This document shows positions 10,213 through 53,321 of a DNA stretch of 53,321 bases, piece after piece. The position numbers were made by a program, and so were the translations under genes. The notes below the pieces were generated by a model, which saw only the letters and a list, made by a program, of their open reading frames with translations, was not told the origin of the DNA and made no database searches. Source of the stretch: a virus; the IMG/VR virus record IMGVR_UViG_3300034022_000841, positions 1 through 53,321 of that record. One strand, 5' to 3'. Numbering within the stretch: the first letter of the stretch is position 1; the number at the start of each line of letters is the position of its first letter.

Positions 10213-11750
10213 AAATAATTGATGTTGGTACGGTTATAGATATTTTAGATCCACAAGGAATTGGTAGAATACGCTATTTTTCTTTTGATGATAATATTGC
10301 TACAAAACAAAGAGCATATACTGGTCCTGCTTGGGATAAAAACGACCCAACTGTTGCATTACCTTTTTTACCGACACATATTAATATCATTCCAGAAGTT
10401 AAAGGTGCTGTTAAAATTATAAAACACATTGCAGAATCTGATGGTTTAACAAACCAAGAATATATCCCAGGACCATTTACAACTTCACACGATTTTCCAT
10501 CACAATCATTTAGTAGTCAATTAACGTATACATCTTATGGTGTTGGTAGTATCCCTAAACCAGATATCAAAAGTTTTAGCGGGTCTAAATTATCTTTTGA
10601 GGACAATTACGTTGAAGCCAAATCCGTTGGTACAATGGCTAAATTAGGCGATATAGCTATAAACGGTAATTATGGTTCAGATTTATTATTAACTGAAGGC
10701 GGAGCTCAATTACGTGCGGGAAAATTTATATCTAAAGAAACAAAAAGTAAAACAATAAAAGAAAAATTAAGCATATATCCCTACCGCGGTAGAAAAGAAG
10801 CTAAATTATCTTTAAAGAAATATCCATATACTGCTGAATTATTCACTGAAACAACATTTGTGGATAAAATAAGTCGAATGGATTTAAAGCACATTGTAGA
10901 ATACGATTTAAACGATTTTGAATCTCCTACAGGTGTAACAATGACAATTTACGAGGTTATTACTGGTGAAGGTGACAAATATAAAACAGATATCTTTAAT
11001 CAGGAAACAACTAATTTTGGTGCAAATATTAAATTAATTTATCAAGATGAGATTGAAGTCGATTCAATAGAAGAGGCGTATGCTGAAGTAAGAACATTTA
11101 TTGCTAATTTAGATAATGAAAAAATGAATGTGATATCATCAACCCTGCCAAATAAAACCGCACATCCATTTTATTTTAGACCAGTTGTTTCACCAAACTC
11201 ATTAGTTAGAAGAGAAACCCCAACAAATTTAGGTAAATCAAATAAGGTTAAATTTCTTGAAAATATAGTTGTTAAACCTAGAAAAAATTACGGATTGTTT
11301 TTTGATGAAACATCTGCCGATCCTGTAATTTCAAAACTTAAAAAGACAAATCAATACGTTAGAAATAAAAACATTGTTTATGATGCTAAGGGTAAAATTT
11401 TAAGAGAAGATTATATAGAACAATCCATTGGTTCTGTTATGGCGGATAAATTTTTTATTCTTTCAACTGAAACAAATGGTGGTAGTGGTAAAAGTGTAGA
11501 TTTCCCTAATTTAAACAAATATGAACTTGACCAATTTGATTATATTGAAAGAATTGAACCAAATACTTGGTCATCAGTTAGGGGCGAAAAATTAATTGAA
11601 ATACTTGAATTAATGGTTGAAATGTTATTAGAACATAGGCACGGGATAGGTACCACCCCTGCATGGCCACAAGCCCTAAAAGATAAAATTAGGGACCTTA
11701 AAACTAAAATGCCAAATGACATGGTTAATAAATCAATTAGAATCAACTAA
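10209..11750 (+). CDS. Baseplate hub/spike protein with gp5-like OB fold
   Basis: The first 85 residues resemble the N-terminal OB fold of T4 gp5 and VgrG spike proteins: DVGTVIDILDPQGIGRIRY (the usual G-V-V-x-D-x-x-D-P-x-x-x-G-R-V-R-V pattern), then PFLPTHINIIPEVKGAVKII. Residues 125-170 (AKLGDIAINGNYGSDLLLTEGGAQLRAGK) look like the beta-rich segment found in related phage hub proteins. No lysozyme-like domain and no long repetitive beta-helix are seen, unlike T4 gp5. The C-terminus is helical and charged. A structural protein at the baseplate centre is likely. The exact counterpart is uncertain. Confidence 0.6.
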   Translation: MKIIDVGTVIDILDPQGIGRIRYFSFDDNIATKQRAYTGPAWDKNDPTVALPFLPTHINIIPEVKGAVKIIKHIAESDGLTNQEYIPGPFTTSHDFPSQSFSSQLTYTSYGVGSIPKPDIKSFSGSKLSFEDNYVEAKSVGTMAKLGDIAINGNYGSDLLLTEGGAQLRAGKFISKETKSKTIKEKLSIYPYRGRKEAKLSLKKYPYTAELFTETTFVDKISRMDLKHIVEYDLNDFESPTGVTMTIYEVITGEGDKYKTDIFNQETTNFGANIKLIYQDEIEVDSIEEAYAEVRTFIANLDNEKMNVISSTLPNKTAHPFYFRPVVSPNSLVRRETPTNLGKSNKVKFLENIVVKPRKNYGLFFDETSADPVISKLKKTNQYVRNKNIVYDAKGKILREDYIEQSIGSVMADKFFILSTETNGGSGKSVDFPNLNKYELDQFDYIERIEPNTWSSVRGEKLIEILELMVEMLLEHRHGIGTTPAWPQALKDKIRDLKTKMPNDMVNKSIRIN

Positions 11751-11755
11751 TTCGA

Positions 11756-11763
11756 TATTTATT
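11756..11763 (+). promoter_or_regulatory. TATTTATT motif, candidate late promoter
   Basis: In the 23 nt gap after the hub gene, 10 nt before the ATG at 11774. Confidence 0.4.
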
Positions 11764-11773
11764 AAATAAAAAG

Positions 11774-13144
11774 ATGTCATATTTTCGTTCATACTTTGAA
11801 AAAAACAACACTATAATAAAAAATTCTCAGATTAACACGGCTAAAAACCCTAATACTGAGATATTTTATGGTTCCGGATTCTCAAAATTTATTTTTAAAG
11901 TCGATTTAACAGATTTAAAAGCAAAAGTTGATGGCGGGGACTACGTTGTTAATGGTAACACAAAACATTACCTTAAAATGACAAACACCATTTTTGGTGA
12001 TGAAGCGTTTTTGGGGCAAAAAAGAGGTTCTGGTAGAGAAAGAGCCACCTCTTTTGATTTAATCATTTTTAAAATAACCGAATATTGGGATGAGGGTGTT
12101 GGTTTCGATTACGAACAAGTATATGATTTCACGTCTGGGAACGAAACATTCGACGAGAGACCGTCTAACTGGTTTAATAGAACTACTTTAGATTCTTGGT
12201 CTTCTGAAGGTGTTTATAGCACATCTCCAACGGTTATTGGAACCATTAGCATGGATAATGGTGATGAGAATTTAGATGTCGATATAACTGACTATGTTAA
12301 TAGCATAGTGGTTAGCGGAAACACCAATCATGGTCTTGGTATAGCATTTAGTGTTTTATATCAAGATTTATCCCCAGCAATCGACCAATCTGTTTCATTT
12401 TTTACAAAATACACACAAACCTTTTTTGAACCATTCGTTGAAACCGTATTTGACGATAGAATTGATGATAATAGAGATAACTTTATCGCTGAGGTAAATC
12501 AAAATCTTTATTTATACGTAACTAAAGGTTCAAATTACTACGATTTAGATAGTTTACCTACGGTTGATATCTTAGATTATAATAATGCTGTTATTTCGGG
12601 TTTAGGTAACCTTACAACGACGAAAATACGCAAAGGGATATACAAGGTCACCTTTGGTCTTTCGGGGCTTCTATGCGACGGGAAACGCTTTTATTTTGAT
12701 AAATGGAAAGGTTTGTCTATAGACGGCGTATCAATCGATAATCTTACTCAAAAATTTGTACCTAAGCCATATACTTCGTTATACACTATTGGCGCTAATC
12801 CGGTTGAATTACAGAGATATGTTATCCAATTTTTCGGGTTACAATTAAACGAAAAAATAAAATCTGGTGAAAATAGAAAGGTGGTTGTGACGTTTAGATC
12901 CTTAGATTATCCAAAATCAGTACTATTTGACGAGGTTTATTATAGAATATTTGTTAAAGAGGGTAAAACCCAGGTTAATGTATTTGAATGGACTCAGCTA
13001 GATAAAACCAATGAAAATTCATTCTTTTTAGACACTTCAATAATGATTCCTAGAGAATACTGGGTTGAAATAAAGGGTAAAACGCATAATGAGGAAATCT
13101 TCTATAAGGATTTAATAAAATTTGAAATTGTTTCAGAAAGATAA
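11774..13144 (+). CDS. Beta-rich virion protein with DNRLRE-like domain
   Basis: A 456 aa, beta-rich protein without signal peptide. Residues about 25-215 have the spacing of Trp, Asp and Thr seen in DNRLRE/CBM-like jelly rolls: EYWDEGVGFDYEQVY, SNWFNRTTLDSWSSEGVY, and LDVDITDYVNSIVVSGNTNHGLGIAF. The middle and C-terminal parts continue as beta sandwich-like text (YVIQFFGLQLNEKI and similar). Such domains occur in phage fibres and baseplate appendages that contact glycans. A tail or baseplate-appendage role is inferred from its position after the hub gene and its own late-type motif. The domain match is by pattern only. Confidence 0.6.
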   Translation: MSYFRSYFEKNNTIIKNSQINTAKNPNTEIFYGSGFSKFIFKVDLTDLKAKVDGGDYVVNGNTKHYLKMTNTIFGDEAFLGQKRGSGRERATSFDLIIFKITEYWDEGVGFDYEQVYDFTSGNETFDERPSNWFNRTTLDSWSSEGVYSTSPTVIGTISMDNGDENLDVDITDYVNSIVVSGNTNHGLGIAFSVLYQDLSPAIDQSVSFFTKYTQTFFEPFVETVFDDRIDDNRDNFIAEVNQNLYLYVTKGSNYYDLDSLPTVDILDYNNAVISGLGNLTTTKIRKGIYKVTFGLSGLLCDGKRFYFDKWKGLSIDGVSIDNLTQKFVPKPYTSLYTIGANPVELQRYVIQFFGLQLNEKIKSGENRKVVVTFRSLDYPKSVLFDEVYYRIFVKEGKTQVNVFEWTQLDKTNENSFFLDTSIMIPREYWVEIKGKTHNEEIFYKDLIKFEIVSER

Positions 13145-33885: not shown

Positions 33886-34806
33886 ATGGCAATTTATAAT
33901 GAAAGTTTTGAGGACCGTTATGCTCGTCAAGAAAAAGAAAGAGAAGAATTAAGATTACAAAAACAATTAAAAATTAAAAAAATGATAAAAGCAATTAGTG
34001 CAGGTGTGTTAGGATTTATCCTATTGGTAGTATTATTTAATTCATGTGAGAGAATTGATGCTGGACATGTTGGTGTTAAAGTTAATCAGTATGGGGATAA
34101 TAAAGGTGTGGATGACGTAACCGCAGTTACAGGTATGGTATTCTATAATCCAATTACCACTCGTATCTATGAGTTTCCTACTTTCATTCAACACAAAGAA
34201 TATAAAGGTGAGAATTCATTCATTGTAAATAGTAAGGATGGTTCGGAATTTAATGTGTCGCCCATTATGAACTATTCAGTACAAAGAGATAAAGTACCGG
34301 CGATTTTCGCCAAATATCGTAGACCCCTAGAAGACATTGAAGAGGGATTTTTAAAGACAGCGGTCTATGATGCGTTCAGATTAGCCACTAACAAATACAC
34401 AGCGGATGAGTTAATCTCTAATAGAGCAATATTTGAAATCGAAGTTCGTAGATTATTGGATGGGCAATTATTAAAAGAGGGATTTACAATTAATCAGTTC
34501 ACGTCAAATTTAATTTACCCTGAAACATTCAAGCGTTCAATCGAAGCTAAGAACAATGCGGTTCAAGCGGCGTTAAGAGCCGAGAATGAAGTTAAAACAG
34601 CGGAAGCACAAGCTAAGATTAAAGTGGCAACTGCTGAGGGTAATGCCCAAGCTATGTTAACGTCAGCAAAAGCAGAAGCTGAATCAAATAGAATGAAGCA
34701 AGTAACCTTGACGCCGTTATTATTACAATTGGAATACATCAACAAATGGGATGGTAAGTTACCAGTTTATGGTACTGTACCCCAAATGTTTAAAAACATT
34801 CAATAG
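33886..34806 (+). CDS. SPFH/prohibitin-family membrane protein
   Basis: 306 aa. A charged N-terminal helix (1-33) leads to one TM helix at 35-52, then the SPFH/Band 7 domain from about 55: SCERIDAGHVGVKVNQYGDN, PITTRIYEFPTFIQHKEYK, VSPIMNYSVQRDKVPAIFAK, and YPETFKRSIEAKNNAVQAAL. An Ala/Glu-rich coiled coil follows (210-275), as in HflK, HflC and prohibitins. These proteins form large membrane rings that shield or control FtsH-type proteases. A phage copy may protect phage products or reshape host membrane proteolysis, which is inference. A terminator follows 25 nt after the stop. Confidence 0.88.
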   Translation: MAIYNESFEDRYARQEKEREELRLQKQLKIKKMIKAISAGVLGFILLVVLFNSCERIDAGHVGVKVNQYGDNKGVDDVTAVTGMVFYNPITTRIYEFPTFIQHKEYKGENSFIVNSKDGSEFNVSPIMNYSVQRDKVPAIFAKYRRPLEDIEEGFLKTAVYDAFRLATNKYTADELISNRAIFEIEVRRLLDGQLLKEGFTINQFTSNLIYPETFKRSIEAKNNAVQAALRAENEVKTAEAQAKIKVATAEGNAQAMLTSAKAEAESNRMKQVTLTPLLLQLEYINKWDGKLPVYGTVPQMFKNIQ

Positions 34807-42253: not shown

Positions 42254-42647
42254 TTTCCCAATCTTTGAAATCGGCAGCTAAACAATCTATTTTGTAATCT
42301 TTTCTACCGCCAACAATCTCTTGTATTTTATTTTTAGCGGTATTTCTAATACCATTAATTCCGTGGGTTAATTCTAGGTTATTACCGTCTTTAATACCTT
42401 TACGGTAATTTGATTCATTATGCCAAATGTGTAAATTCATTTGAGATAAAACAACAATCGCCCTAATTGTTTCTGCGGTTATCGGTTGATCCGTATCATT
42501 TAAACACAACTGAATATCATGAACAATATCCTTTATTTCTTGTGAGTATTCCACTTTGTGTTCAGCTATAAACACCTCTTTTAATTGTGATATTGATAAT
42601 CTATCAACTAATTCTGCTAAGGTTGGTAAATATTTTCTTTCTGTCAT
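42243..42647 (-). CDS. Conserved phage protein of unknown function, 134 aa
   Basis: Mostly helical. YLPTLAELVDRLSISQLKEV, the central HDIQLCLNDTDQPITAETIR and LTHGINGIRNTAKNKIQEIV form a pattern I recognise from many tailed phages, especially near nucleotide-sugar genes, but the family has no known activity. It is the last gene of a four-gene leftward unit (kinase, adenylyltransferase, cupin, this), with 4 nt overlap to the cupin gene. Confidence 0.65.
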   Translation of the reverse strand: MTERKYLPTLAELVDRLSISQLKEVFIAEHKVEYSQEIKDIVHDIQLCLNDTDQPITAETIRAIVVLSQMNLHIWHNESNYRKGIKDGNNLELTHGINGIRNTAKNKIQEIVGGRKDYKIDCLAADFKDWEISW

Positions 42648-43015
42648 AATGTATTTCCTTTTTCTATTCTATAACTATCACTATCGAAATGAGTTGTTGA
42701 TACTTCAAAAATCTCACCATCTGTTAGTGCTATTAATTGGTGCGGTTGTCCTGGTCTTTGTCTAACAACGTCACCTTTTTTTAAATTTATTTCTTTTGTT
42801 AATCCTTTTTCAGTATCGATAAATTTATAGATAAATTCCCCTGAATTAACATACCAAGTTTCATCCTTTAATAAATGATAATGCATTGAGAATCTACAAC
42901 CGCTATTGAAAACTAAAATTTTACCGCAGTAAAGTTCATTATTCTCAATAATTAGTTCGTGCCCCCATCCTTTTGGTATTTTACAACAATCAGTAATTTG
43001 TGGTTCTGGTAACAT
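42644..43015 (-). CDS. Small cupin, sugar-metabolism type
   Basis: 123 aa single cupin. GWGHELIIENNELYCGKILV and SMHYHLLKDETWYVNSGEFI carry the metal-binding His/His/Glu of the first cupin motif. The second motif is GDVVRQRPGQPHQLIALTDG with its His. It resembles the C-terminal domain of mannose-6-phosphate isomerase or mannose-1-phosphate guanylyltransferase. Next to the HldE-like pair a sugar-phosphate isomerase role is plausible but not shown. It overlaps the adenylyltransferase gene by 26 nt and the next gene by 4 nt. Confidence 0.75.
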   Translation of the reverse strand: MLPEPQITDCCKIPKGWGHELIIENNELYCGKILVFNSGCRFSMHYHLLKDETWYVNSGEFIYKFIDTEKGLTKEINLKKGDVVRQRPGQPHQLIALTDGEIFEVSTTHFDSDSYRIEKGNTL

Positions 43016-43406
43016 CGTTTTTACATTTATAAATTAAATTAGTGGTTGAGTACCCGTTAATTTTATTAAAATATACAATTTCTTTTGCATATTGTGAACC
43101 AATTATTGGTTTATTCAGATAATCATCACCAATAATAAAATAATCTGGGTTATAATCCATAATTAATTCAGATAATTCAATGTCTGAATTAAAAGATACT
43201 ACCGAATCTACTCCATTGATATTAGATATAAACTCCATTCTATCCGATAGTGTGTTAAATGGTCTAAATAACCCTTTTTTTTCATTAATTCTTTTGTCTG
43301 TGTCCAAACCCACTCTTATAGAACCAAAGGATTTCCCAAAATTTATAAGACGTATGTGGCCAATATGTAAAATATCAAATGACCCATTTATCCAAACTTT
43401 TTTCAT
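42990..43406 (-). CDS. HldE C-domain-like sugar-phosphate nucleotidyltransferase
   Basis: 138 aa cytidylyltransferase-like protein. The signature GSFDILHIGHIRLI has the HIGH motif at 14-17, and VGLDTDKRINEKKG, RMEFISNINGVDSVVSF and YFIIGDDYLNKPIIG follow the order of RfaE domain II (D-glycero-beta-D-manno-heptose 1-phosphate adenylyltransferase). In cells the domain is fused to the kinase as HldE or is a separate protein. It overlaps the kinase-like gene by 4 nt, so the two are made together. Glycerol-3-phosphate cytidylyltransferase is an alternative reading. Confidence 0.75.
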   Translation of the reverse strand: MKKVWINGSFDILHIGHIRLINFGKSFGSIRVGLDTDKRINEKKGLFRPFNTLSDRMEFISNINGVDSVVSFNSDIELSELIMDYNPDYFIIGDDYLNKPIIGSQYAKEIVYFNKINGYSTTNLIYKCKNDVTRTTNY

Positions 43407-44140
43407 AAAGTACTAACCCCTCTTTTTTGAATTACGATACCAGAACAATGATTAGCAAATCTAATTGAAACATCTACGTCTTTATTTTTCACATATGAAA
43501 CAACAAATGATGCCATAAAGGTATCTCCCGCACCACTAACATCCATTATAACTAATTCGTTTTCAGTTGGGTATGTTTTACCATTAAAAAAACAACCTTT
43601 ACTAGATTTAGTAATAATTAGTTTTTCTTTCCAGTAGTTATAATCTAATCCTCCTTTTTCACAGTTTTGCCACTCAGTTTCATTTATTTTTATGTATGAA
43701 TATTTTATTGCCCAAGGACCTAATATTTTTTTCGTATCTAAAAATGTTAAATTATGTGAATTAGATATTAATTCCAAATCTTTAGTTGTTAAAAACCCCT
43801 TATCATAATCTGAAACAATAACTGCATCATATTTTTCAAAATCGATAGATTCAAACTTAAATGTGTTTTCAATAACATCATTATCGTCTACACGAATTAA
43901 CATTTGATTTGATTTTTCATCAACATATCTAGTTTTCGTTATTTTTTCTTTATTTGATAGTAAATCAACTACCTCAACATCCAATGATAATAAATTATCA
44001 TAGACATTACCAGCCATCCCTAAATTTCTAGTTACTTTTGTCGGTTTAAAAACCGGAACGGGTGCTTCAGGGCATAATCTTTCGCACACTCCGTAAATAA
44101 AAACGTCATCACAAACGTCTCCGATTACTAATATTTTCAT
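43403..44140 (-). CDS. HldE N-domain-like PfkB sugar kinase
   Basis: 245 aa from the ATG at 44140; a longer frame to 44167 adds only MCFFNIIIN and is less likely. ILVIGDVCDDVFIYG, LCPEAPVPVFKP and NLGMAGNVYDNLLSL match RfaE domain I (heptose 7-phosphate kinase), where the C-P-E-A-P-V-P-V segment is diagnostic. AVIVSDYDKGFLT and VSGAGDTFMASFVVSY supply the PfkB phosphate-transfer motifs with the catalytic Asp. It is shorter than cellular HldE kinase domains (about 310 aa). With the adenylyltransferase it could make ADP-heptose for host or phage glycan, or imitate host LPS-core synthesis. Confidence 0.8.
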   Translation of the reverse strand: MKILVIGDVCDDVFIYGVCERLCPEAPVPVFKPTKVTRNLGMAGNVYDNLLSLDVEVVDLLSNKEKITKTRYVDEKSNQMLIRVDDNDVIENTFKFESIDFEKYDAVIVSDYDKGFLTTKDLELISNSHNLTFLDTKKILGPWAIKYSYIKINETEWQNCEKGGLDYNYWKEKLIITKSSKGCFFNGKTYPTENELVIMDVSGAGDTFMASFVVSYVKNKDVDVSIRFANHCSGIVIQKRGVSTL

Positions 44141-44197
44141 ATTAATAATAATATTAAAAAAACACAAAAAAGTGAATTGTTTTAGATTAAAATAGCG

Positions 44198-45595
44198 TTA
44201 TAATATAGCTCTAGTACCGATTAAGAAATTACTTAAGAATGGTGTTCCTGAAGCGGTATTTCCACTTAGTTTATAGTTAAAACTAAATCCAAACCTCTTA
44301 CTAATTTTATAATCAAAGGAAGCACCTACCAAAAAGCCCATATGTCTATTTACCGTAGTTGTTCCAGCAACACTATTCCAAGATATTGGTGCAAACATCG
44401 TAAATAACTGAGGTGAAATGGTTAATTTTTTACTATACTGATATGGCTTGGTCCAAAATGCCACAACAGAGGTTGACATGTTATAGTCATATGTGGTATC
44501 TGTCGATTTCAAAAATAAATTAATCAAACCTAAGTTATAACCAAAAACACCATGTTTTGGGGTTGGTTTAATCCACGTATACCCCAATAAATTCATGTAA
44601 TTACCATTCAAATAAGCAAATGCGCTTGAATACGAATGTATTGCGTTTAATTTGCCTCCATTAAAGTCCATCTTAGTATATCCACCACTAACAATAAACG
44701 TCTTTAAATCGCTCATAATGACCGTATTTGCAGAATAACTTTTATCGCCACCTAACGATGATTTAGAAACACCAATAGTTGCTGATTGTAACCATCTACC
44801 GTCAGGCGATTCAATTGTTGACAAATCTGATGACAATAACATTGGATTAGTTACCGCCGCTTTTTCCTTTTTCTTTTCTTCCTTTTTTTCTTCTTTCTTT
44901 TCCTCTTTTTTCTCCTCTGATTTACTCTCTTCTTTCTTTTCTTCTTTAGTTTCTGATTTAGCTTCTTCTTTTTTCTCTTCAGATTTAGTTTCCGATTTTG
45001 ATTCACTTTTACTTTCCGTCTTTGCTTCGGTTTTAGTTTCTGTTTTACTTTCCGATGATGATGACGATGAACTACTAGAAGATGAACTACTAGAGGATGA
45101 TGATCCACCACTCGTTGCAGGTGGTGTTGATGATGAACTTCCGCTTGATGGTGGTGGTGTCACTGGCGGTGGGGTTGACGCAGAACTAGCCGCGGCAGAA
45201 CTTGCGGAACTACTAGCTGCGGAACTTGCAGAACTACTAGCAGCAGAACTCGCGGCTGAACTAGCGGCTGAACTAGCGGCGGCGGACGCTGCCGAAGCCG
45301 CGGCGTTTGCTACAGCTTGTTGAACAACAGGGTTATTAATAACCGGACATGTTAATGCTTCATATGTGGTTTTTGTTGTTAATAACCACGTTTGCACAAC
45401 ACCTGTTTGTACTTCTAATGGTGAAAAGGTTCTAACTTGATTGTAAAAAGACACTGTAGCATAACCATTTATCATTGTTGTTGTGGCTATTTTTTTTTCA
45501 CCACTACATTTATCGATAAATGTTTGACTGTATGTTTGCCCATACGATATTGAGGCAAAACAAAGAATAATAAATAAAAAAATAATTTTTTTCAT
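44198..45595 (-). CDS. Secreted outer-membrane barrel protein with long low-complexity stalk
   Basis: 465 aa. The signal peptide MKKIIFLFIILCFASISYGQ (1-20) ends at Gln as in many Bacteroidota. A small domain follows at 21-85 (DKCSGEKKIATTT, VQTWLLTTKTTYEALTC). Residues 96-140 are almost only Ala and Ser, 141-163 Pro/Ser, 164-182 Ser and 182-246 Lys/Glu/Ser/Thr. The last 215 residues look like outer-membrane strands with alternating hydrophobic residues (KLTISPQLFTMFAPISW, RFGFSFNYKLSG) and end in IGTRAIL. It resembles the barrel of the 297 aa protein at 51463 (shared ISPQ-hydrophobic-F and KRF segments). Probably an outer-membrane protein of the infected cell. Role unknown. Confidence 0.65.
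   Translation of the reverse strand: MKKIIFLFIILCFASISYGQTYSQTFIDKCSGEKKIATTTMINGYATVSFYNQVRTFSPLEVQTGVVQTWLLTTKTTYEALTCPVINNPVVQQAVANAAASAASAAASSAASSAASSAASSSASSAASSSASSAAASSASTPPPVTPPPSSGSSSSTPPATSGGSSSSSSSSSSSSSSSSSESKTETKTEAKTESKSESKSETKSEEKKEEAKSETKEEKKEESKSEEKKEEKKEEKKEEKKKEKAAVTNPMLLSSDLSTIESPDGRWLQSATIGVSKSSLGGDKSYSANTVIMSDLKTFIVSGGYTKMDFNGGKLNAIHSYSSAFAYLNGNYMNLLGYTWIKPTPKHGVFGYNLGLINLFLKSTDTTYDYNMSTSVVAFWTKPYQYSKKLTISPQLFTMFAPISWNSVAGTTTVNRHMGFLVGASFDYKISKRFGFSFNYKLSGNTASGTPFLSNFLIGTRAIL
44858..45310 (-). repeat. Low-complexity Ala/Ser and Lys/Glu coding repeats
   Basis: Codon-level repetition (GCx/AGx runs, then Lys-Glu runs) within the barrel protein gene encodes residues 96-246. 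It has high potential for slippage and length variation. Confidence 0.7.
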
Positions 45596-45598
45596 TAA

Positions 45599-46450
45599 TT
45601 ACTTATTATTAAGACCAATCGCTATTTGAGTGTATTTTCTTATTGGGTCGACGTCAAATTTGATAGTTAAAAAATTAAAATCTCTAATAACACCAATCTT
45701 GAATGTTGTAAAGTTTGTATTCGACTTTGGAAAAGATATTCCACCAATAGCATCTCTACCTTGATATCTCAAAATTTCACGCCCAAAACCAATCATACCG
45801 TGAATTCCCAATTTGTTAATTCTTTTACCCGCGCCCAAATAAATTGCTGACTCTTTTTTAAAATCATTATCACTAATTGGGAAGTCAGCTATAGCAATGT
45901 TGCCATATGGGTAATATTTATTTTGATCAATCTCATATGTCATCACATAATCTAAAATAAAATATCCCTTTTTACCTCCGACTGCTCCCCAATAAGACAC
46001 TTGCTTATTATTGGTATGTCCAAAACCAAAAGTGGTATATGGCGATTCCTTTCTAATCGTGTCTCTTTTACCACTTTCATATATGTGAATTACACTTCTT
46101 TGTCTCCACCCTAAATCATCATACCAAATATATGGTAATGGTTGATACCACCCCCAATTACCCCAATAATACCCAAATTGATTTTGCCTGTTCCAATTTT
46201 GAACACGTATTCTACCACGCGGGTCTGGATTAGGTTGTAATTGTTGTTGTGGTGGATTATTTCTCCAATTACTCACATCATTTCTTTGTGGGGCTGATTG
46301 TTGTGTTTTTGGTGTTTCAACTCTCGGTTGTGGTGTTGATTGTTGCGGTGGATTAGTTCTCCATGTTGATACCTGTCCGAACATTAAAGTTGGGAATAAT
46401 AAAACTAAAAATAAAATTGTTTTCATACTGTTTTTTTTAAATTTTTTCAT
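45599..46450 (-). CDS. Secreted protein, likely outer-membrane associated
   Basis: 283 aa. ATGA overlap with the FeoA-like stop supports the start at 46450; MKTILFLVLLFPTLMFGQ from the second Met (46426) is the actual signal peptide shape. Residues 27-80 are rich in Pro, Gln and Asn, with the segment VSTWRTNPPQQ/VSNWRNNPPQQ repeated twice. The Trp/Tyr-rich segment QNQFGYYWGNWGWYQPLPYI follows, and then about 180 residues of beta-strand-like text (KKGYFILDYVMTYEI, TNFTTFKIGVIRDFNFLTIK). The end alternates hydrophobic residues. A surface or outer-membrane protein is likely; no named family. Confidence 0.65.
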   Translation of the reverse strand: MKKFKKNSMKTILFLVLLFPTLMFGQVSTWRTNPPQQSTPQPRVETPKTQQSAPQRNDVSNWRNNPPQQQLQPNPDPRGRIRVQNWNRQNQFGYYWGNWGWYQPLPYIWYDDLGWRQRSVIHIYESGKRDTIRKESPYTTFGFGHTNNKQVSYWGAVGGKKGYFILDYVMTYEIDQNKYYPYGNIAIADFPISDNDFKKESAIYLGAGKRINKLGIHGMIGFGREILRYQGRDAIGGISFPKSNTNFTTFKIGVIRDFNFLTIKFDVDPIRKYTQIAIGLNNK

Positions 46451-46683
46451 AATATATTTTTTAAAATAACTCTATCCAATTCTTCAGGTCTTAATGCTAA
46501 AGTTGATTCTACGTGACCACTTCCAGATAGAATATTAACCAAGTATAATCCTAACTTTTTTTCACTTATTTCAATTTGTTGCCCACATATAAAGCCCATC
46601 TCCATCATTTTTAACCTCAAACAAGGGACGCAATTTTCACAATCAACTTTTTGTGGTACATCTATAACTTCACACACTCTCAT
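46447..46683 (-). CDS. FeoA-like small protein with Cys cluster
   Basis: 78 aa. The SH3-like FeoA pattern is present: LKMMEMGFICGQQIEISEKK, then LVNILSGSGHVESTLALRPEELDRVI, where FeoA has L-x-x-L-G-L-x-x-G-x-x-I and A-L-R. It differs by a leading CENCVPC cluster (residues 15-21) that could bind metal. In cells FeoA assists the FeoB iron transporter; no FeoB is seen here. A TATTTATA motif lies 3 nt upstream and a terminator just beyond that, so it opens a leftward unit with the secreted proteins. Confidence 0.7.
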   Translation of the reverse strand: MRVCEVIDVPQKVDCENCVPCLRLKMMEMGFICGQQIEISEKKLGLYLVNILSGSGHVESTLALRPEELDRVILKNIL

Positions 46684-46751: not shown

Positions 46752-47468
46752 TTATTCGGTAAAAATCCCCTTTTTAATCATTCTATCTAGAATTCTTGCA
46801 CAAGCAATGTCTAACGCTTTTTTTGTTGCAATTGAGATAGTTGACTGATTAAATTTAATCGGATCTACTGTTGCGTCAGATAATAACGTTAATTGTCTAT
46901 TTGTTACCGCCTCACCCAAACCAGACGCCCCGAATAATACTCCAGTTTCAGCGTCAGTGAATCTTACCTGTAAACCAATACGTGTAACCATATTGTCTTT
47001 AACACCATCCTTTAAATTAACCGTTTCATCTTCAGAAATCGAATAATCATAACATTCTACTGTTACAAAATACTTCGCTAGATTAATTTTACCCCTGCCA
47101 TCTAGTTTGTTTTCCGATATCCCAGATTGAGATGCCTGGAATTGTTTTACCATACGATTCTTTATTTCGGTTTTATCCTCAGTAAATTTGAATCTATTTA
47201 AGTTTTCAAGGTATTCCATTGTTATATTGGCAACGCCCAAACCAACTCTTTTTTCTTTAAGTTCTGGGTACATTTCGTACATTTCGTCACTGATACCCGC
47301 TTTAAGAATTTGTATTGGAATTTGCGGACCGTCGTAGTCCAAAAATTGACTTATGTCTATTTTTGTTTCAAAAGACGCTTTATAATTTTCCGTTTTAGTT
47401 GTGCCTATTGTTTGACTAAATGCCGTTATAGACACTAAAACTGCTAAAATTGTTAATATTAGTTTCAT
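46752..47468 (-). CDS. CsgG-family outer-membrane pore-like protein
   Basis: 238 aa from ATG 47468; a longer frame to 47552 would overlap the 39 aa gene and lacks a signal peptide start. MKLILTILAVLVSITAFSQ is a signal peptide without the Cys of true CsgG lipoproteins. RVGLGVANITMEYLENLNRF, then KFTEDKTEIKNRM resembles the CsgG nucleotide-like strand-helix core. TRIGLQVRFTDAETGVLFGA, then ATKKALDIACARILDRMIKK is also typical. CsgG forms a nonameric secretion pore in E. coli curli export; whether this protein is a pore is unknown. It is the third gene of a leftward unit with two small membrane proteins. Confidence 0.7.
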   Translation of the reverse strand: MKLILTILAVLVSITAFSQTIGTTKTENYKASFETKIDISQFLDYDGPQIPIQILKAGISDEMYEMYPELKEKRVGLGVANITMEYLENLNRFKFTEDKTEIKNRMVKQFQASQSGISENKLDGRGKINLAKYFVTVECYDYSISEDETVNLKDGVKDNMVTRIGLQVRFTDAETGVLFGASGLGEAVTNRQLTLLSDATVDPIKFNQSTISIATKKALDIACARILDRMIKKGIFTE

Positions 47469-47470
47469 GT

Positions 47471-47590
47471 TTAAATAATTGCCGTAATTGCTGCTGTTAA
47501 TAATGTAAACCCACAATATAATATGAAGAAACCGAAACTCATGGCACCACATAATAATGAGAATTCGAAAATGTCTTGAAATTTTTTCAT
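47471..47590 (-). CDS. Small membrane protein, 39 aa
   Basis: ATG at 47590, stop TAA at 47471-47473. One hydrophobic helix (SFGFFILYCGFTLLTAAITAI) behind a short polar N-terminus (MKKFQDIFEFSL). It starts 4 nt after the upstream gene's stop, and its own stop precedes the CsgG-like ATG by 2 nt, the tight spacing expected of a real gene in this operon. Not recognised. Confidence 0.6.
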   Translation of the reverse strand: MKKFQDIFEFSLLCGAMSFGFFILYCGFTLLTAAITAII

Positions 47591-47959: not shown

Positions 47960-48703
47960 TTAAGGATTCCATTTATTTAATGCACTTATGTAATTACTTG
48001 TCATATGGTCTTTAACGGTCTGACCTGTAAAAACTGCTTTAAGATATTCAGTTACTCTTTTCGTATCAATCATCCATTTTTTAATTTTACCCTCATCATC
48101 AATCCTTAATTCGGTATTAACGTGATAGTATCCAATATTTGGTGCGCGGGTAACCAAATCTAAATTATGGACGATTCTTAAAGATTCAATTGATGATTTA
48201 TCAAAGTTTTGTTTGAATATTTTATTTCCAACTCTTGGACTACCGATAGTACAACATATAATCTTATTTGATTTATAAATTGAATAAATCTCATATGCGC
48301 ATAAGGTAGAAACCGCGGCACCCAAACTGTGACCACAAACAATAATATTATCGACCTCACCTTCACCACCTAACGTTGATAACGCCTTTTCAAATGCTTC
48401 GTATGTTTTGTCTTTTACAGAATCCCAAGACGATTTAAAACCAATATGAACTTTTTCACCATCTTGAACAAATGGTACTTTATCAATTGACGCGTCGTTT
48501 TGAAAATCTTTTTTAGATGAACTACCTCTCCAAACGATATAGATAGATTTGTCTTTTGTTGCAACAAACCCTTGTGTGTCTGATTTTTTATCCTCAATCC
48601 ATTTAATTAATTTTAATCTTAGCGCTTTAAAATCAATGTCTTTTTCTTCTGAATATACTTTCTCGGTTAAACCAACATTGTATAGTATTTCGTTTTTTGT
48701 CAT
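47960..48703 (-). CDS. Class 3 lipase-like alpha/beta hydrolase
   Basis: 247 aa. The nucleophile elbow is GHSLGAAVSTLCAYEIY with Ser126. Catalytic Asp182 lies in HNLDLVTRAPN and His233 in VKDHMTSNYIS, so the triad is complete and in family order. The oxyanion segment VWRGSSSKKDFQND (58-71) is also typical. No signal peptide, so it acts in the cytoplasm or is released through a holin lesion. A phage lipase could attack host membrane lipids or lipoproteins at lysis or modify the envelope. TATTTATA lies 12 nt upstream. It forms its own single-gene unit. Confidence 0.88.
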   Translation of the reverse strand: MTKNEILYNVGLTEKVYSEEKDIDFKALRLKLIKWIEDKKSDTQGFVATKDKSIYIVWRGSSSKKDFQNDASIDKVPFVQDGEKVHIGFKSSWDSVKDKTYEAFEKALSTLGGEGEVDNIIVCGHSLGAAVSTLCAYEIYSIYKSNKIICCTIGSPRVGNKIFKQNFDKSSIESLRIVHNLDLVTRAPNIGYYHVNTELRIDDEGKIKKWMIDTKRVTEYLKAVFTGQTVKDHMTSNYISALNKWNP

Positions 48704-48726: not shown

Positions 48727-48753
48727 AAAAAAAGGGAGTTAAAAACTCCCTTT
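48727..48753 (-). terminator. Rho-independent terminator of the envelope operon
   Basis: Perfect 10 bp stem (48731-48740 with 48744-48753, loop AAA) and a minus-strand T-run at 48727-48733. It sits 4 nt beyond the stop of the 82 aa gene. Confidence 0.9.
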
Positions 48754-48757
48754 CGTA

Positions 48758-49006
48758 TTAACCTTCTGTTTCTTCTTTCTTTTTATGAGAGAATTTATCC
48801 ATTGTATCAGCACCCATTCCAATCCCTGTGATAATCATCACAGCATTCACCAATTCAGGTGATGGAGCAAATTCTGCGTGAGAGAACGAATTTAAGATCA
48901 TAGTTACACATAGGAACATTGCCCCTACAAATGCTATAACTGGTTTTACTGAAATTGAACCTCTTTCGTCTTTGAAGAGTTCAATTGCCCATTGTTTGAA
49001 ATTCAT
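48758..49006 (-). CDS. Holin-like membrane protein, 82 aa
   Basis: 82 aa with two hydrophobic segments, about 22-41 (VIAFVGAMFLCVTMILNSFS) and 53-67 (VNAVMIITGIGMGAD), separated by a short loop with Pro. The N-terminus reads MNFKQWAIELFKDERGSISV and the C-terminus is a charged Lys/Glu tail. The size, two TM helices and charged tail fit a class II holin. This is a topology argument only. It is the last gene before a strong terminator. Confidence 0.55.
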   Translation of the reverse strand: MNFKQWAIELFKDERGSISVKPVIAFVGAMFLCVTMILNSFSHAEFAPSPELVNAVMIITGIGMGADTMDKFSHKKKEETEG

Positions 49007-49044
49007 AATTTTTGTTTTTGGTTTATATTGTTTATTTGGTCGTT

Positions 49045-49674
49045 TTATCCTTCCGCGGGCATTTCCGCGTAATCATCTCGAATTTTACCACATTTTAAAC
49101 ATTCTTCAGTACCGTCTCCGTCTAAGTCACCCCAAACGTGTTCACATTGTCTATGTGCAAAATACGCATCAATTTTACCATCACCATCAAAATCAATACC
49201 ATCCATTATACCATCACCATCTTCATCAACTTCAATACCTGTTCTTGGTTGTGTAGTTGGTACTTGTTCAAACGTATCGTTTACCTTTTCTATTTTTGAG
49301 TTTTCAATAGCGTTTTGAAACGCTTCAGGTATGATTGGTGTGTTGTTTGGCGGAGTTACAGGTAAATCTGCGGTATTGCTTAATGCAGTACCATCTTCCT
49401 CATCCATTTTTTGAACTAACATCTTATCCTTATCTGTATCACTAAACCAATAGTCGATTATTTTACCATAACTACCGATAAATGCACCCAATAATAATAA
49501 TAAAAGTTCTTTCCATTCTCCTTCGATTGCTGATTTATTTAATATAGCAAAGAACATTCCACCTATAATAAACATAAATCCCCCCAATACCAATGCTGTG
49601 ATGTACCATCTTCTGGCCATCATGTTACTTAATAAATCTTTAAAACCACTTGGTGGTTGCTTGTTTTCTACCAT
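49045..49674 (-). CDS. Membrane protein with calcium-binding-like tail
   Basis: 209 aa. Two TM helices at about 22-46 (WYITALVLGGFMFIIGGMFF) and 54-71 (ELLLLLLGAFIGSYGKII), a linker rich in Thr and Pro, then a C-terminal region. The tail has three DxDGDG-type acidic loops (VDEDGDGIMDG, DFDGDGKIDAY, DLDGDGTEE) as in calcium-binding TSP3 repeats, and a Cys/His set (QCEHVWG, ECLKCG) that may bind zinc. The TM pair resembles phage holins with extended tails. A regulated holin or a membrane sensor is a guess from topology. Confidence 0.55.
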   Translation of the reverse strand: MVENKQPPSGFKDLLSNMMARRWYITALVLGGFMFIIGGMFFAILNKSAIEGEWKELLLLLLGAFIGSYGKIIDYWFSDTDKDKMLVQKMDEEDGTALSNTADLPVTPPNNTPIIPEAFQNAIENSKIEKVNDTFEQVPTTQPRTGIEVDEDGDGIMDGIDFDGDGKIDAYFAHRQCEHVWGDLDGDGTEECLKCGKIRDDYAEMPAEG

Positions 49675-49688
49675 TTTTTAATATGTTT

Positions 49689-49997
49689 TTACCACTTAGG
49701 TGCTTCTTCTTTAAATTCGTCACCCTCTTTTTTCTTAGGTTTAGGTGCTGGTGCTGAAGTTGCCCCTTTTTCTTTAATTATTACTGTTTTACCACCACCC
49801 GCTGCTTGTTGCTGTGTTTGTGAGTTGGTAATGTTAATTACAGGCGCCGCTTGTACGGGTGCCGGTTCTGCTTTGTCACCACCACCTAAAAGTGTTGATA
49901 ACCATACTCCACCTGCCGTCACTAATGTAGTTGCAACCCCAACTATTGTCTTTTTTAAACCTGACCAGGTTCCATCTTGTTCTTGTTCTTCTGCCAT
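49689..49997 (-). CDS. Small single-pass membrane protein
   Basis: 102 aa. One TM helix at about 17-37 (TIVGVATTLVTAGGVWLSTL) between a charged N-terminus and a Pro/Ala/Gln/Lys-rich C-terminus (VIIKEKGATSAPAPKPKKKE). Not recognised. It shares an operon with holin-like and secreted proteins, which suggests a membrane-associated function such as antiholin or spanin-like protein; neither is shown by motif. Confidence 0.5.
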   Translation of the reverse strand: MAEEQEQDGTWSGLKKTIVGVATTLVTAGGVWLSTLLGGGDKAEPAPVQAAPVINITNSQTQQQAAGGGKTVIIKEKGATSAPAPKPKKKEGDEFKEEAPKW

Positions 49998-50035
49998 TGT
50001 ATTTGTTTTTAGTTTTTTAGTTTATTTTGTTAACA

Positions 50036-50719
50036 TTATGCCCCAAACGCCTTAGTAAACCCTTCAGGACAAGTTTTTTTACATATCAAATCTGCAATAA
50101 CAGGTGCAAAAGCCGCCCCAATTGCAATACCAACTCCAGCCGGTGTTGCCCATAACGCCGCAGAATCTAAACTCTTTGCTAAACAATTTGAAATTATATT
50201 TTTTAATAGTGTGTGGTCAATACTATCACTAACATATGGCATTAGTAAAAATGCATCTTTTATAATTTCACTCATTTCTCCCACTACCGCAACTTTAACC
50301 GCCATACTAGTGATGGTTGATGCCATTACCGATAAAGTTGTTGATGTTGCCACCGCTGTTGGATTTGCTGGTTCTGGCGTGAATGCGTAAACAATTCCAG
50401 CCGAGATTGCTGCCGTTACTGCTATATTGCAAGCATTTGCATCTGCCCAGTTGTACGCATCTATTACACCCTCTTTTACTTCTTCATAAGTTTCTTTAAA
50501 AATTGGAACAACTTTATCATCCCACTCTCCACCCACGACATCTTCAATTCTGTGATTTATTTCAGGATGGTCGTGAATGTATCTTATTGCTTTATCGGTA
50601 AGTCCCCATGTTTCACATGTTGAACAAGGACCATCACCACCAAATCCATAAAATCTTACATAGTTATCTCCACAATCTGAGCGATGATATACTATTCCGT
50701 CTCCGTTTCTGTCTGCCAT
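50036..50719 (-). CDS. Hypothetical protein with hydrophobic middle, 227 aa
   Basis: The N-terminus (MADRNGDGIVYHRSDCGDNY, CSTCETWG) has a DxxGDG loop and a Cys pair. Residues about 96-135 are Ala/Thr/Val-rich and hydrophobic (NIAVTAAISAGIVYAFTPEP), and 190-212 (ATPAGVGIAIGAAFAPVIAD) is a second such stretch, ending CKKTCPEG. The pattern fits a membrane-inserting or Ca/Zn-binding protein, but no family is known to me. It lies in the leftward envelope operon. Confidence 0.5.
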   Translation of the reverse strand: MADRNGDGIVYHRSDCGDNYVRFYGFGGDGPCSTCETWGLTDKAIRYIHDHPEINHRIEDVVGGEWDDKVVPIFKETYEEVKEGVIDAYNWADANACNIAVTAAISAGIVYAFTPEPANPTAVATSTTLSVMASTITSMAVKVAVVGEMSEIIKDAFLLMPYVSDSIDHTLLKNIISNCLAKSLDSAALWATPAGVGIAIGAAFAPVIADLICKKTCPEGFTKAFGA

Positions 50720-50738
50720 AATATTTGTTTTTATATAA

Positions 50739-51116
50739 TTATTGTATTTTATTAAAATCGGTAATTCCTAATTGTTTTCCATTAGAATCAAATAATCCAA
50801 TTCTATATGCCGATGATGGTAAAGCGCTAGTGTATACCTTTAAAAGATTGTCGCCAGCAACCACGTTTAAGGTTTCTTTTGAAACAACCCTATTTCCTAT
50901 ATCGAATATTTTAACCGTAACCGAACCTGCTGTTTCAGTTTTAACATTCATTGCCACTTCCGAGGTAACAAATGCCGTTTGTAACTTAATACCCACCGAA
51001 CTTGTCATCTTAAGTTCTTCAGATACTGATTGTGGTGTTGGCATAATATCATCTTTATAACAACCTGTTAAAACCACACATAATAATACTATTGTGAGAA
51101 TTTTTTTCATTTTCAT
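50739..51116 (-). CDS. Lipoprotein with type IX sorting-domain-like fold
   Basis: 125 aa. The signal MKMKKILTIVLLCVVLTGC has lipobox LTGC, so Cys19 is lipidated. The mature part reads like a small beta sandwich: GSVTVKIFDIGNRVVSKETL, then NVVAGDNLLKVYTSALPSSA, then YRIGLFDSNGKQLGIT. This resembles the C-terminal sorting domain of T9SS cargo (the G-R-V-V/I-x, x-G-x-N and L-P-x-x-x-Y patterns), but here it makes up the whole mature protein behind a lipid anchor. Similar composition to the next gene at 51122. Confidence 0.65.
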   Translation of the reverse strand: MKMKKILTIVLLCVVLTGCYKDDIMPTPQSVSEELKMTSSVGIKLQTAFVTSEVAMNVKTETAGSVTVKIFDIGNRVVSKETLNVVAGDNLLKVYTSALPSSAYRIGLFDSNGKQLGITDFNKIQ

Positions 51117-51121
51117 TAATT

Positions 51122-51463
51122 TTAGTTTATAATTATTTTTGTCTTTTTTAATTGGTTTTTATCTACATCCTCAAGTACTAGATATAAATATCCTTTAGGT
51201 AAAGAATTGGTGTAAATCTTCTTAATATTTTCACCATTTTGCCCAATAAATTTTTCTCGGCTAATTACTTGATTCGTTGTTGCATCAATTAAGGTTAACA
51301 TATAGGTTCCGGATGAGGGTAAATCGAAATATATTGATTGACCATTTGTTACCTTACTTTCATCCACATTGAATATCTTTTCAACCGGAATATCTGGTGT
51401 TGGTATCTCCACTTTTGTGCATCCAGCTAATAAAATCAATGATATTAATATTATCTTCTTCAT
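51122..51463 (-). CDS. Lipoprotein with type IX sorting-domain-like fold
   Basis: 113 aa. Signal MKKIILISLILLAGC with lipobox LAGC (Cys15). The mature part includes GQSIYFDLPSSGTYMLTLID, then ATTNQVISREKFIGQNGENI, then YTNSLPKGYLYLVLEDVDKN and a final KKTKIIIN, matching the beta-rich T9SS C-terminal domain pattern including the ending. Partner of the preceding lipoprotein, with 5 nt between them, and 1 nt overlap with the barrel gene upstream (stop and start at 51463). Confidence 0.65.
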   Translation of the reverse strand: MKKIILISLILLAGCTKVEIPTPDIPVEKIFNVDESKVTNGQSIYFDLPSSGTYMLTLIDATTNQVISREKFIGQNGENIKKIYTNSLPKGYLYLVLEDVDKNQLKKTKIIIN

Positions 51464-52356
51464 TAGAATTGAAAGTTTGTTCCTATCATAAACATTATTG
51501 GGTTACTCTTTTTATAACCAACTGATTCACTTAATTTATCCCAAGTTGTGTTATATCTTATATTAGTATTTAACACAAATCTTTTAGTTATCTTCCAGTC
51601 AATAGATGTTCCATAATACAAATCCAAATTGAAATCATTTAGATATGCTAAATCTGAAGCCGTTCCGTCTTTAAATACTTTATAGATATCACTCATTGCG
51701 AATATTTGTGGTGAAATGTTTACTCTCTTTGTTTTCAATGTATATGTGTACATCACCATACCTCTATAACTTATTTCACTTGATGCCGGTATCATTGGAT
51801 ATATTAAATCTTTAAAATCGCCATTTTCATCAACCGTATATTTCCCTTCCCACTCACCTTGGTAAGTCCCCCAAAAAGATTTTGATGCGGTTAAACTATA
51901 ACCAAATGTGCCCCACTTCTTAGATCTAAACACATCAATAAACGATAGGGTGATATCTTTTTGAAAATCAAAATCGGTTGAGTAAAATGTTTGTATTGTA
52001 GTTGTTCTTTTTTCTGAATTTCTACTGAGGCCATATCCCACGCCATAATAATTCCATATAGGATTTATGGATGCCGCATATGTATGTCCCCATTGTCCGC
52101 TCATAGATGATTTATGATACCCCAAATTAAGAGTAGTAGACACTTGCTTTCCTATTACACCTACTGAAAGGTTTGACGACGAAAGTACATCTTTTGAAAA
52201 ATTAACATACGATTGTAATATACCCACATCGTTCCAATCATCACTTTCTCCAAATAGTTCTTTTGCCGATAGTTGTAATGTATCTGGTTTTACAATTTGT
52301 GCGTTTGTAACAAATGTTATCGAAATTAGTGACAGAATTATTATTAGTTTTTTCAT
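51463..52356 (-). CDS. Outer-membrane beta-barrel-like protein
   Basis: 297 aa. Signal peptide MKKLIIILSLISITFVTNAQ ending at Gln. The rest alternates hydrophobic and polar residues with Trp/Tyr at strand ends (WGHTYAASINPIWNYYGVGY, TFGYSLTASKSFWGTY) and closes in IMFMIGTNFQF, a terminal Phe as in outer-membrane barrels. It shares the ISPQIFAMS and ITKRFVLNTNIRY segments with the C-terminal domain of the 465 aa protein at 44198. A barrel with 8-12 strands is plausible. The function is unknown. It overlaps both neighbours by 1 nt. Confidence 0.68.
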   Translation of the reverse strand: MKKLIIILSLISITFVTNAQIVKPDTLQLSAKELFGESDDWNDVGILQSYVNFSKDVLSSSNLSVGVIGKQVSTTLNLGYHKSSMSGQWGHTYAASINPIWNYYGVGYGLSRNSEKRTTTIQTFYSTDFDFQKDITLSFIDVFRSKKWGTFGYSLTASKSFWGTYQGEWEGKYTVDENGDFKDLIYPMIPASSEISYRGMVMYTYTLKTKRVNISPQIFAMSDIYKVFKDGTASDLAYLNDFNLDLYYGTSIDWKITKRFVLNTNIRYNTTWDKLSESVGYKKSNPIMFMIGTNFQF

Positions 52357-53321
52357 CAGTTTATTTTTACTTTTAATTGTGTTCCATTTTTATTAACGGC
52401 ATCTGTTGTTGATACCGACGTCAACCCCAGCGTACCATTTAATCCTATTACAGGTAAGAATGTTACTTTATATTCCGTTGTTTTATCCAATGTAGTTGAG
52501 CCGTCAGTTATCAACGAACCTAATGTTATTGATGAACCCCTATTAGTTCCAAAATTAGTTGGATTACCTTTTGTGGTAAATTCTACCTTTTCAAACTTTA
52601 AAGCGGTATTATCGTAGTTTAAATTGAATTGTGTACCAACTAATTCTTGTTGTAATGGGTCTACTGATATTGTTACAACCAACTTACCACCAACATTTTC
52701 ACCCATTAGATACGCGTTAATTTGATTAGAAACTGAATTAGTTGATAAACTCATTGTTCTTATTGAGTTTGTAGTAACACTACTTTGAGTTTGTTTTGCC
52801 GAATGAGATAAGTTTATATCACCTATCCAGGTCACGTTCACATTATATGTGTTATTAAGTGTCCCAGTGTTTAAACTAAACGGAAATAAACTTCTTGTGT
52901 TATTAAATTGTGTGCCCCAATTAGTTTTAGTAATCGCGTCATAATCAGATTTACTATAAAGTTTCATCAAATAAGTTAATGCAGAATATTGTGTAAGTGG
53001 TTGGACACCTGTCAAATATTGTAATAATTTATATGTATCCGCCTCATTGAAAATCCCATTACCATCCACGTCTGCGTTCATATATTGAATACCAGAGGTG
53101 AATTCATTCCCACTTTCATTTCCAAACAAACCACCACTCGATAATTCCTTAAAAGCTATGAATACATCCGATACGGTTACAACACTATTATATAAGGTGT
53201 TTAAATCTGTTTGATTGGTGTATGATAAATCTATTCCGTGTTGTTTGTAATTTTGGGTTTGCGCGAATGTGTATTCAACCCTAACACCATACCAGCTATC
53301 TTGTGCCCTTATTTTCGATTG
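52356..53321 (-). CDS. Dockerin/cohesin-like surface protein, 5' end beyond the window
   Basis: The frame is open to the window edge (last visible upstream residues read QSKIRAQDSWYGV), so this is the C-terminal 321 residues of a longer protein. A dockerin-like acidic loop MNADVDGNGIFNEADTYKLL with a partial copy just before it (VTVSDVFIAFKEL) suggests a calcium-binding pair. Residues toward the end resemble a cohesin/beta sandwich: GGKLVVTISVDPLQQELVGT, then QFNLNYDNTALKFEKVEF. Such combinations occur in large adhesins or cellulosome-type proteins. In this operon it may form a surface fibre or adhesin. Function is open. Confidence 0.6.
   Translation of the reverse strand, partial: QSKIRAQDSWYGVRVEYTFAQTQNYKQHGIDLSYTNQTDLNTLYNSVVTVSDVFIAFKELSSGGLFGNESGNEFTSGIQYMNADVDGNGIFNEADTYKLLQYLTGVQPLTQYSALTYLMKLYSKSDYDAITKTNWGTQFNNTRSLFPFSLNTGTLNNTYNVNVTWIGDINLSHSAKQTQSSVTTNSIRTMSLSTNSVSNQINAYLMGENVGGKLVVTISVDPLQQELVGTQFNLNYDNTALKFEKVEFTTKGNPTNFGTNRGSSITLGSLITDGSTTLDKTTEYKVTFLPVIGLNGTLGLTSVSTTDAVNKNGTQLKVKIN

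Follow-up and report, generated by a model that had tools for sequence, protein, structure and literature searches.

Why should a virus carry an operon of lipoproteins, an outer-membrane barrel and secreted proteins with cohesin-type domains? The question is raised by the right end of IMG/VR record IMGVR_UViG_3300034022_000841, one linear viral record of 53,321 bases (the whole of this stretch is called the window below), where eight tightly packed minus-strand open reading frames (ORFs), named here C, D, E, F, G, H, I and J, run leftward from the window edge. The phage is large and T4-like, with its major head protein, protease, portal and terminase encoded at 16-25 kb. We suggest that this operon, carried by large phages with aquatic Bacteroidota as their likely hosts, probably leads an infected cell to show sugar-binding surface proteins. 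In the fuller form of this explanation, which we consider fairly probable, cognate pairs of a secreted protein and a lipid anchor, derived from cargo of the type IX secretion system (T9SS) by splitting off of the sorting domain, would display a calcium-dependent lectin on the infected Bacteroidota cell.

Cohesin-type proteins and their lipoproteins

The first gene, C, is cut by the window edge. Two contigs, L003 and L096, match the window at ~98% over 10.9 kb and supply the genes past position 53321, the extension that an earlier sequence-only reading of this stretch had called for. They give C in full (765 aa; 8663-10960 in L096), preceded by B (550 aa) and A (187 aa). The large calcium-loop protein envisaged in that reading is therefore no giant, and its lectin domain lies outside the window. 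Full-length C comprises a signal peptide, an N-terminal beta domain, a C-type lectin domain, a further beta domain, a dockerin-like segment and a cohesin domain; B is homologous to C in its C-terminal part.

The part of C inside the window scores 23.8 bits against Pfam Cohesin (PF00963; cut-off 24.1), relatives with a fused sorting domain (see below) reach 36.6-36.8 bits, and the cohesin fold of a full-length relative matches solved cohesins (Foldseek 2jh2, E 1.1e-6), so that both domain and fold identify C as a cohesin protein. The model of C is of low overall confidence (pLDDT 57), and therefore only its cohesin match was used. Lectin_C (PF00059) matches 26 of 30 members of the C family and lies above its cut-off of 22.6 bits in L096 (26.5 bits) and in protein gp13 of the cultured Flavobacterium phage vB_FspM_immuto (58 bits), hereafter immuto. 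The residues EPN...E...WND, known as those of the mannose-type calcium site of C-type lectins, are found in 56 of 57 distinct full-length C proteins. Domain and calcium/sugar site together thus mark C as a C-type lectin, an assignment made in the relatives since the lectin part is outside the window. In the dockerin-like segment the first calcium loop is kept in 49 of 57 distinct C proteins, and no intact second loop was seen.

The number of cohesin-type proteins is tied to the number of lipoproteins. In a survey of 103 distinct segments from A to H, supplemented by a scan of M-bearing loci without E or F for alternative content (M is a gene downstream of J), this slot was found in three states, without exception. 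The window type has two cohesin proteins (B and C) and two lipoproteins (E and F) and accounts for 84 segments; a second state, S2, has one of each (17 segments); and in the third, S3, a single cohesin protein carries a fused T9SS sorting domain and there is no lipoprotein (2 segments). The fused form also occurs outside this set, in immuto and in L159, a phage contig of 254 kb that was assigned to the bin of a Bacteroidetes metagenome-assembled genome (MAG). The fused domains score 44.5 (L159), 36.7 (immuto gp15), 25.5 (L223) and 22.6 bits (L236) against Por_Secre_tail, for which the cut-off is 27. In L159 and immuto gp15 the domain is thus above the cut-off, and as it is C-terminal on a secreted cohesin passenger, both belong with the T9SS type A sorting domains. 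The lectin (gp13), an intermediate protein (gp14) and the cohesin with its sorting domain (gp15) are separate proteins in immuto, and the one L159 protein aligns with gp14 and gp15 taken together. The bin that holds L159 encodes SprA, the T9SS translocon. The slot is exchanged among close relatives, because L205 has a terminase 82% identical to that of the window, yet is in state S2.

Two further genes were seen in these fused-form phages. A second T9SS sorting-domain protein (57.5 bits) is encoded in the L159 phage contig (L240, 886-1740), which brings the T9SS cargo genes of this phage to at least two. A Sec-exported NUC1/EndA-like nuclease (L273, 5124-5702) lies directly upstream of the immuto lectin gene.

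Co-variation was analyzed from pairwise identities across 64 loci, with the other genes held fixed (partial Mantel test). B varies with F (partial correlation 0.46) and C with E (0.37; p 0.0005 each), the values for B-E and C-F being 0.03 and 0.00. This pairing is retained in 97-100% of half-samples, and E is coupled more strongly to the C-terminal, cohesin-bearing part of C (0.51) than to its N-terminal part (0.17). A and M form a further co-varying pair (0.45).

E and F are homologues of one another (98.8%). A profile of aligned MAG and phage sorting domains, compared with the lipoproteins, gave probabilities of 87% for E, 38% for F and 35% for the S2 lipoprotein; five control domains, cohesin among them, and reversed sequences all stayed <1%. 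The corresponding lipoprotein scores of 33.9, 24.8 and 24.3 compare with a maximum of 16.7 after column shuffling. A hidden Markov model of 11 bacterial sorting domains ranks E directly after the two strongest true ones, and in six-frame scans of 36 whole records, 15 of 17 checked sub-threshold T9SS matches fall in E or F. Judged against these controls, E and F clearly appear, by sequence comparison, to be related to or like T9SS sorting domains. The earlier claim that the mature part of both lipoproteins is T9SS-like is thus upheld in that the resemblance goes beyond all controls, but not as far as family cut-offs, below which both proteins remain.

A second resemblance of F is to DUF3244, seen in 26 of 30 members with a best E of 2.9e-5. 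Directly after its lipobox stands C-Y-K-D-D, an optimal form of C-X-K-(D/E)2, the export signal of surface lipoproteins that has been demonstrated experimentally in Capnocytophaga (PMC5080379); it is found in 36 of 81 distinct F proteins. F is in this respect like known surface-exposed lipoproteins of Bacteroidota, whereas E has only the partial signal C-X-K-x-E, and export of E and F to the surface is a prediction. A match of F to the type V pilus protein Mfa1 was rejected (23.7 bits against a cut-off of 130, probably mostly signal peptide), as were PHROG matches of E and F to spanins and Cor, which are matches to the lipobox. A sequence search of solved structures with F returned only designed repeat proteins, over a stretch of 41 residues.

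Distribution, layout and neighbouring genes

Viral relatives were found for D (93), C (46) and M (511), and the operon recurs in more than 100 viral contigs, which reach 335 kb. The order A-B-C-(D)-E-F-(G)-H-I-J...M...P is conserved among them with mostly small gaps; the genes past J, among them a lipase, M and P, belong to further units. Immuto has a counterpart in gp13-gp19 (MW353176). The operon is therefore present in related phages, and its absence from all relatives, which the sequence-only reading had considered as a sign of an assembly artefact or a host insert, is ruled out by the contigs and the cultured phage. A search of bacterial genomes with C found no relative, and one with M gave a single match, on a phage contig in a Bacteroidetes bin. 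GenBank phages gave no match in a DNA search or in tblastn searches with C and D; searches with M and with fused-form C matched immuto.

The same reading had described one leftward operon running from the window edge to a strong terminator, with dockerin/cohesin-like, barrel, lipoprotein and membrane proteins. Both layout and content hold. Gaps between successive genes from C to J are -1, -1, 5, 19, 38, 14 and 38 nt, and the contents agree with the Pfam scores, the signal peptides, the lipoboxes and the cohesin fold. There is one strong terminator-like hairpin (11 bp stem, T run). A counterpart after J is present in 77 of 99 distinct relatives, compared with 3 of 348 sites after the stop codons of B, C, E and F and 1 of 99 in shuffled windows; we thus place the end of the A-J unit after J.

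Table. Genes and signals of the operon and of units that follow it in the window.
Feature	Coordinates	Strand	Basis and remarks
C, 3' part (321 aa) of secreted C-type lectin/dockerin-like/cohesin protein	52356..53321	-	Open at the edge; Cohesin and Dockerin_1 scores, relative L096
D, outer-membrane beta-barrel protein	51463..52356	-	Sec signal, C-terminal Phe; in about half of relatives
E, lipoprotein (GCTKVE), T9SS sorting-domain-like beta domain	51122..51463	-	Lipobox, profile comparison; co-varies with C
F, lipoprotein with surface export signal (CYKDD), DUF3244/T9SS-sorting-domain-like	50739..51116	-	Homologue of E; co-varies with B
G, 227-aa protein, optional in operon, position variable	50036..50719	-	GH19 endolysin in place of G in L114
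H, 102 aa, one N-terminal membrane segment	49689..49997	-	Starts invariant downstream part; C-terminal Trp in 82/82
I, 209-aa membrane protein, acidic Ca-loop-like tail	49045..49674	-	
J, 82-aa small membrane protein	48758..49006	-	Holin-like by size and hydropathy only
Intrinsic terminator closing A-J transcription unit	48730..48754	-	Hairpin, conserved in relatives
M, secreted CsgG-like fold protein, following unit	46752..47552	-	Beside the operon in nearly all relatives
P, secreted, Ser/Lys/Glu-rich linker, barrel-like C-terminus	44198..45595	-	Accompanies M

D has a signal peptide and a C-terminal Phe, which is common in outer-membrane barrels, in all 64 members. In the acidic tail of I, Ca-loop-like motifs are repeated (DEDGDGIMDGIDFDGDGKID) and there are Cys pairs; the homologue in L159 has no such tail. 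M has a CsgG fold (Foldseek 4uv2, E 1.3e-6, the top 20 matches all being CsgG; E 7.8e-7 against phage CsgG), although its model is a monomer with a mean pLDDT of 70 and the TM values are only 0.3-0.5. Its signal peptide ends in AQ, SQ or GQ and no Cys begins the mature protein, so that M is not a lipoprotein as CsgG is. The idea that A and M are CsgG-like paralogues was dropped as unsupported (8%), and sequence searches of solved structures with M, A and E gave nothing useful. The low-complexity Ser and Lys/Glu linker of P is long, and immuto gp18 seems to share the N-terminal Cys domain of P.

Among the neighbouring genes are a Class 3 lipase (47960-48703; Pfam 1.1e-27; 22 loci) directly past the operon terminator and a 78-aa protein that is FeoA-like by eye (46447-46683, between M and O; 23 loci). 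Heptose kinase/adenylyltransferase-like genes and a cysteine-dioxygenase-like (cupin) gene (42644-44167) adjoin the surface genes, and a Band_7/SPFH-domain protein, listed in PHROGs as a lipoprotein, is encoded at 33886-34806 (Pfam 5.8e-22). The GH19/PG-binding endolysin, which in L114 is inside the operon (11706-12563), is encoded a short way before A in many of the other relatives.

The operon is also subject to exchange. At the DNA level the window and L096 are identical from ~52371 downward over the aligned stretch and ~77% identical above it; this sharp break falls at the C/D junction, and the window end could be an assembly join. C is mosaic across relatives. The major head proteins of operon-bearing phages form two groups, with 76-83% and ~38-49% identity to that of the window (partly over local segments), and the operon genes are nearly as similar between these groups as within them. 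A diversity-generating retroelement acting on the lectin was rejected: no reverse transcriptase was found in 16 long contigs, and the variation, which is mosaic, peaks outside the lectin.

Surface display and rival explanations

The display that we favour would proceed as follows. B and C are predicted to be exported by Sec, C bringing with it the calcium-dependent lectin domain. Each would be matched to an outer-membrane lipoprotein of its own, B to F and C to E. These lipoproteins may be detached beta domains of the T9SS sorting-domain type that were turned into lipoproteins; they would replace the fused sorting and anchoring domain and hold B and C at the outer membrane in trans. In fused-form relatives the protein is presumably exported by the T9SS of the host, and in the split form the barrel D, the CsgG-like M and the flipping route of lipoproteins are candidate ways for B and C across the outer membrane. 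The direction of change would have been from fused to split. Once displayed on the infected cell, the lectin may bind glycans of the host or of neighbouring cells. For a large lytic phage, the likeliest benefit of such binding or masking may be superinfection exclusion, adhesion to neighbours being the less likely one. We also entertain, with more reserve than the scheme as a whole, that a T9SS sorting domain acts here in trans, the detached-domain lipoprotein delivering its cognate secreted protein to the outer membrane and holding it there, in which case the displayed lectin would not be a direct T9SS substrate.

A surface assembly built by the phage, as the sequence-only reading had proposed, has good comparative support in the Sec signals, the export signal of F, the lectin, the fused sorting domains and the co-variation; E and F do not, however, qualify formally as members of the T9SS sorting-domain family. 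Several observations weigh against our explanation. E (16.1 bits for Pfam PF18962, 16.7 for TIGR04183) and F (14.3 and 12.9) are below every curated T9SS cut-off (27 and 23, respectively) and hence outside the family as formally defined, both are free-standing lipoproteins with a lipobox instead of a C-terminal domain on a secreted passenger, and the similarity of F and the S2 lipoprotein to sorting domains is weak. The dockerin type I score of C (PF00404) is 16.9 bits for a cut-off of 22.9, which leaves C outside that family. Among the cohesin proteins of states S2 and S3 that were examined, none showed an EPN/WND lectin motif, and thus not every form of the slot includes the lectin. Bin membership of L159 is no proof of its host. 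Finally, correlations of the kind seen for B-F and C-E can also result from joint recombination of linked neighbours; against this caveat, B and F stand at opposite ends of the block.

The same lectin coat might instead serve adhesion, by which infected cells or debris would be held to uninfected siblings or to particles and progeny would come within reach of hosts ("sibling capture", an idea put forward for phage curli genes). This fits the intact calcium site of the lectin and the adjoining CsgG-like partner, such as also exists in the pelagimyophages to which that idea refers (PMC7029224), but the CsgGF phage Melnitz showed no clumping (PMC9004378), and we regard this purpose as rather unlikely. 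Decoration of the virion by B and C, which would then bind host glycans at adsorption, is improbable. The lectin domain, the abrupt change of C alleles between otherwise near-identical phages (at ~52371), the mosaic cassettes in C and the exchange between lineages are typical of receptor-binding genes and count in its favour. However, all of the proteins carry Sec signals or lipoboxes, the T9SS sorting domains of relatives direct proteins to the bacterial surface, and the operon lies apart from the head genes (16-29 kb).

Very improbable, in our view, is a lysis cassette in which E and F are outer-membrane spanins working with the holin-like J, with H and I and with the nearby GH19 endolysin, B and C being passengers. 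The endolysin does lie inside the operon or shortly upstream, small lipoproteins adjoin small membrane proteins, PHROG spanin matches exist on the lipobox, and a role in lysis has been suggested for phage CsgG (PMC9004378). Yet fused-form relatives retain H and M while having no slot lipoprotein, which does not agree with a two-component spanin, and the number of E/F-type genes tracks that of cohesin proteins, with which they also co-vary. These observations speak against E and F as spanins, not against a role of H-J in lysis. Least probable of the explanations considered is a decoy, with E and F mimicking T9SS sorting domains in order to jam the host T9SS and thereby remove T9SS-exported phage receptors or motility adhesins. 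Such a decoy would account for a T9SS-like domain without a passenger, but it leaves both the cognate pairing with B and C and the real passenger of the fused form unexplained.

Known systems and significance

Phage-encoded T9SS cargo is already known from Cryophage, where it was called unique and hijacking of the host T9SS was proposed (PMC7468147). As in the phages described here, Cryophage proteins bear T9SS (type A) sorting domains and are highly variable between variants (PMC7468147); there, however, it is enzymes and a PA14 protein that carry the domain, whereas in the window type sorting-domain-like lipoproteins are encoded separately and are paired with cohesin/lectin proteins within a conserved operon. 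CsgGF operons of pelagimyophages and methylophage Melnitz, for which sibling capture and lysis have been hypothesized, likewise combine an exported CsgG-fold protein with uncharacterised secreted proteins, with a surface or lysis role proposed (PMC7029224, PMC9004378). They differ in that M lacks a lipobox and a Pfam CsgG match, that cohesin, lectin and lipoprotein genes are present here, and that no CsgF was identified.

Cellulosomal assemblies share the cohesin fold and the dockerin-type calcium loop, and immuto resembles a scaffold display in that its lectin with a dockerin-like segment (gp13) is separate from the cohesin with the anchor (gp15). In contrast to cellulosomes, the dockerin module here is below the cut-off and has one good loop, and any cohesin-dockerin binding is putative. 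Immuto gp13-gp19 is a close cultured parallel, in which the genes for lectin and for cohesin plus sorting domain lie side by side with H-, M-, P- and A-like genes, but its sorting domain is fused, it has no lipoproteins, and its terminase is only 27% identical. An aquatic Bacteroidota jumbo-phage lineage has been described in a text that does not mention lectin, curli or lipoprotein (PMC12619734). No description of the split, paired sorting-domain form was found in the literature searched, which covered few subscription journals; as far as that search goes, this form is new.

If our explanation is correct, aquatic jumbo phages, which are widespread, remodel the host surface by adding a sugar-binding coat, and the type IX sorting domain would be separable and able to work as an independent lipid anchor. 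With fused, one-pair and two-pair forms all occurring in nature, and with the fused-form phage immuto in culture, both the use of the T9SS by phages and the anchoring of T9SS cargo can be tested directly.

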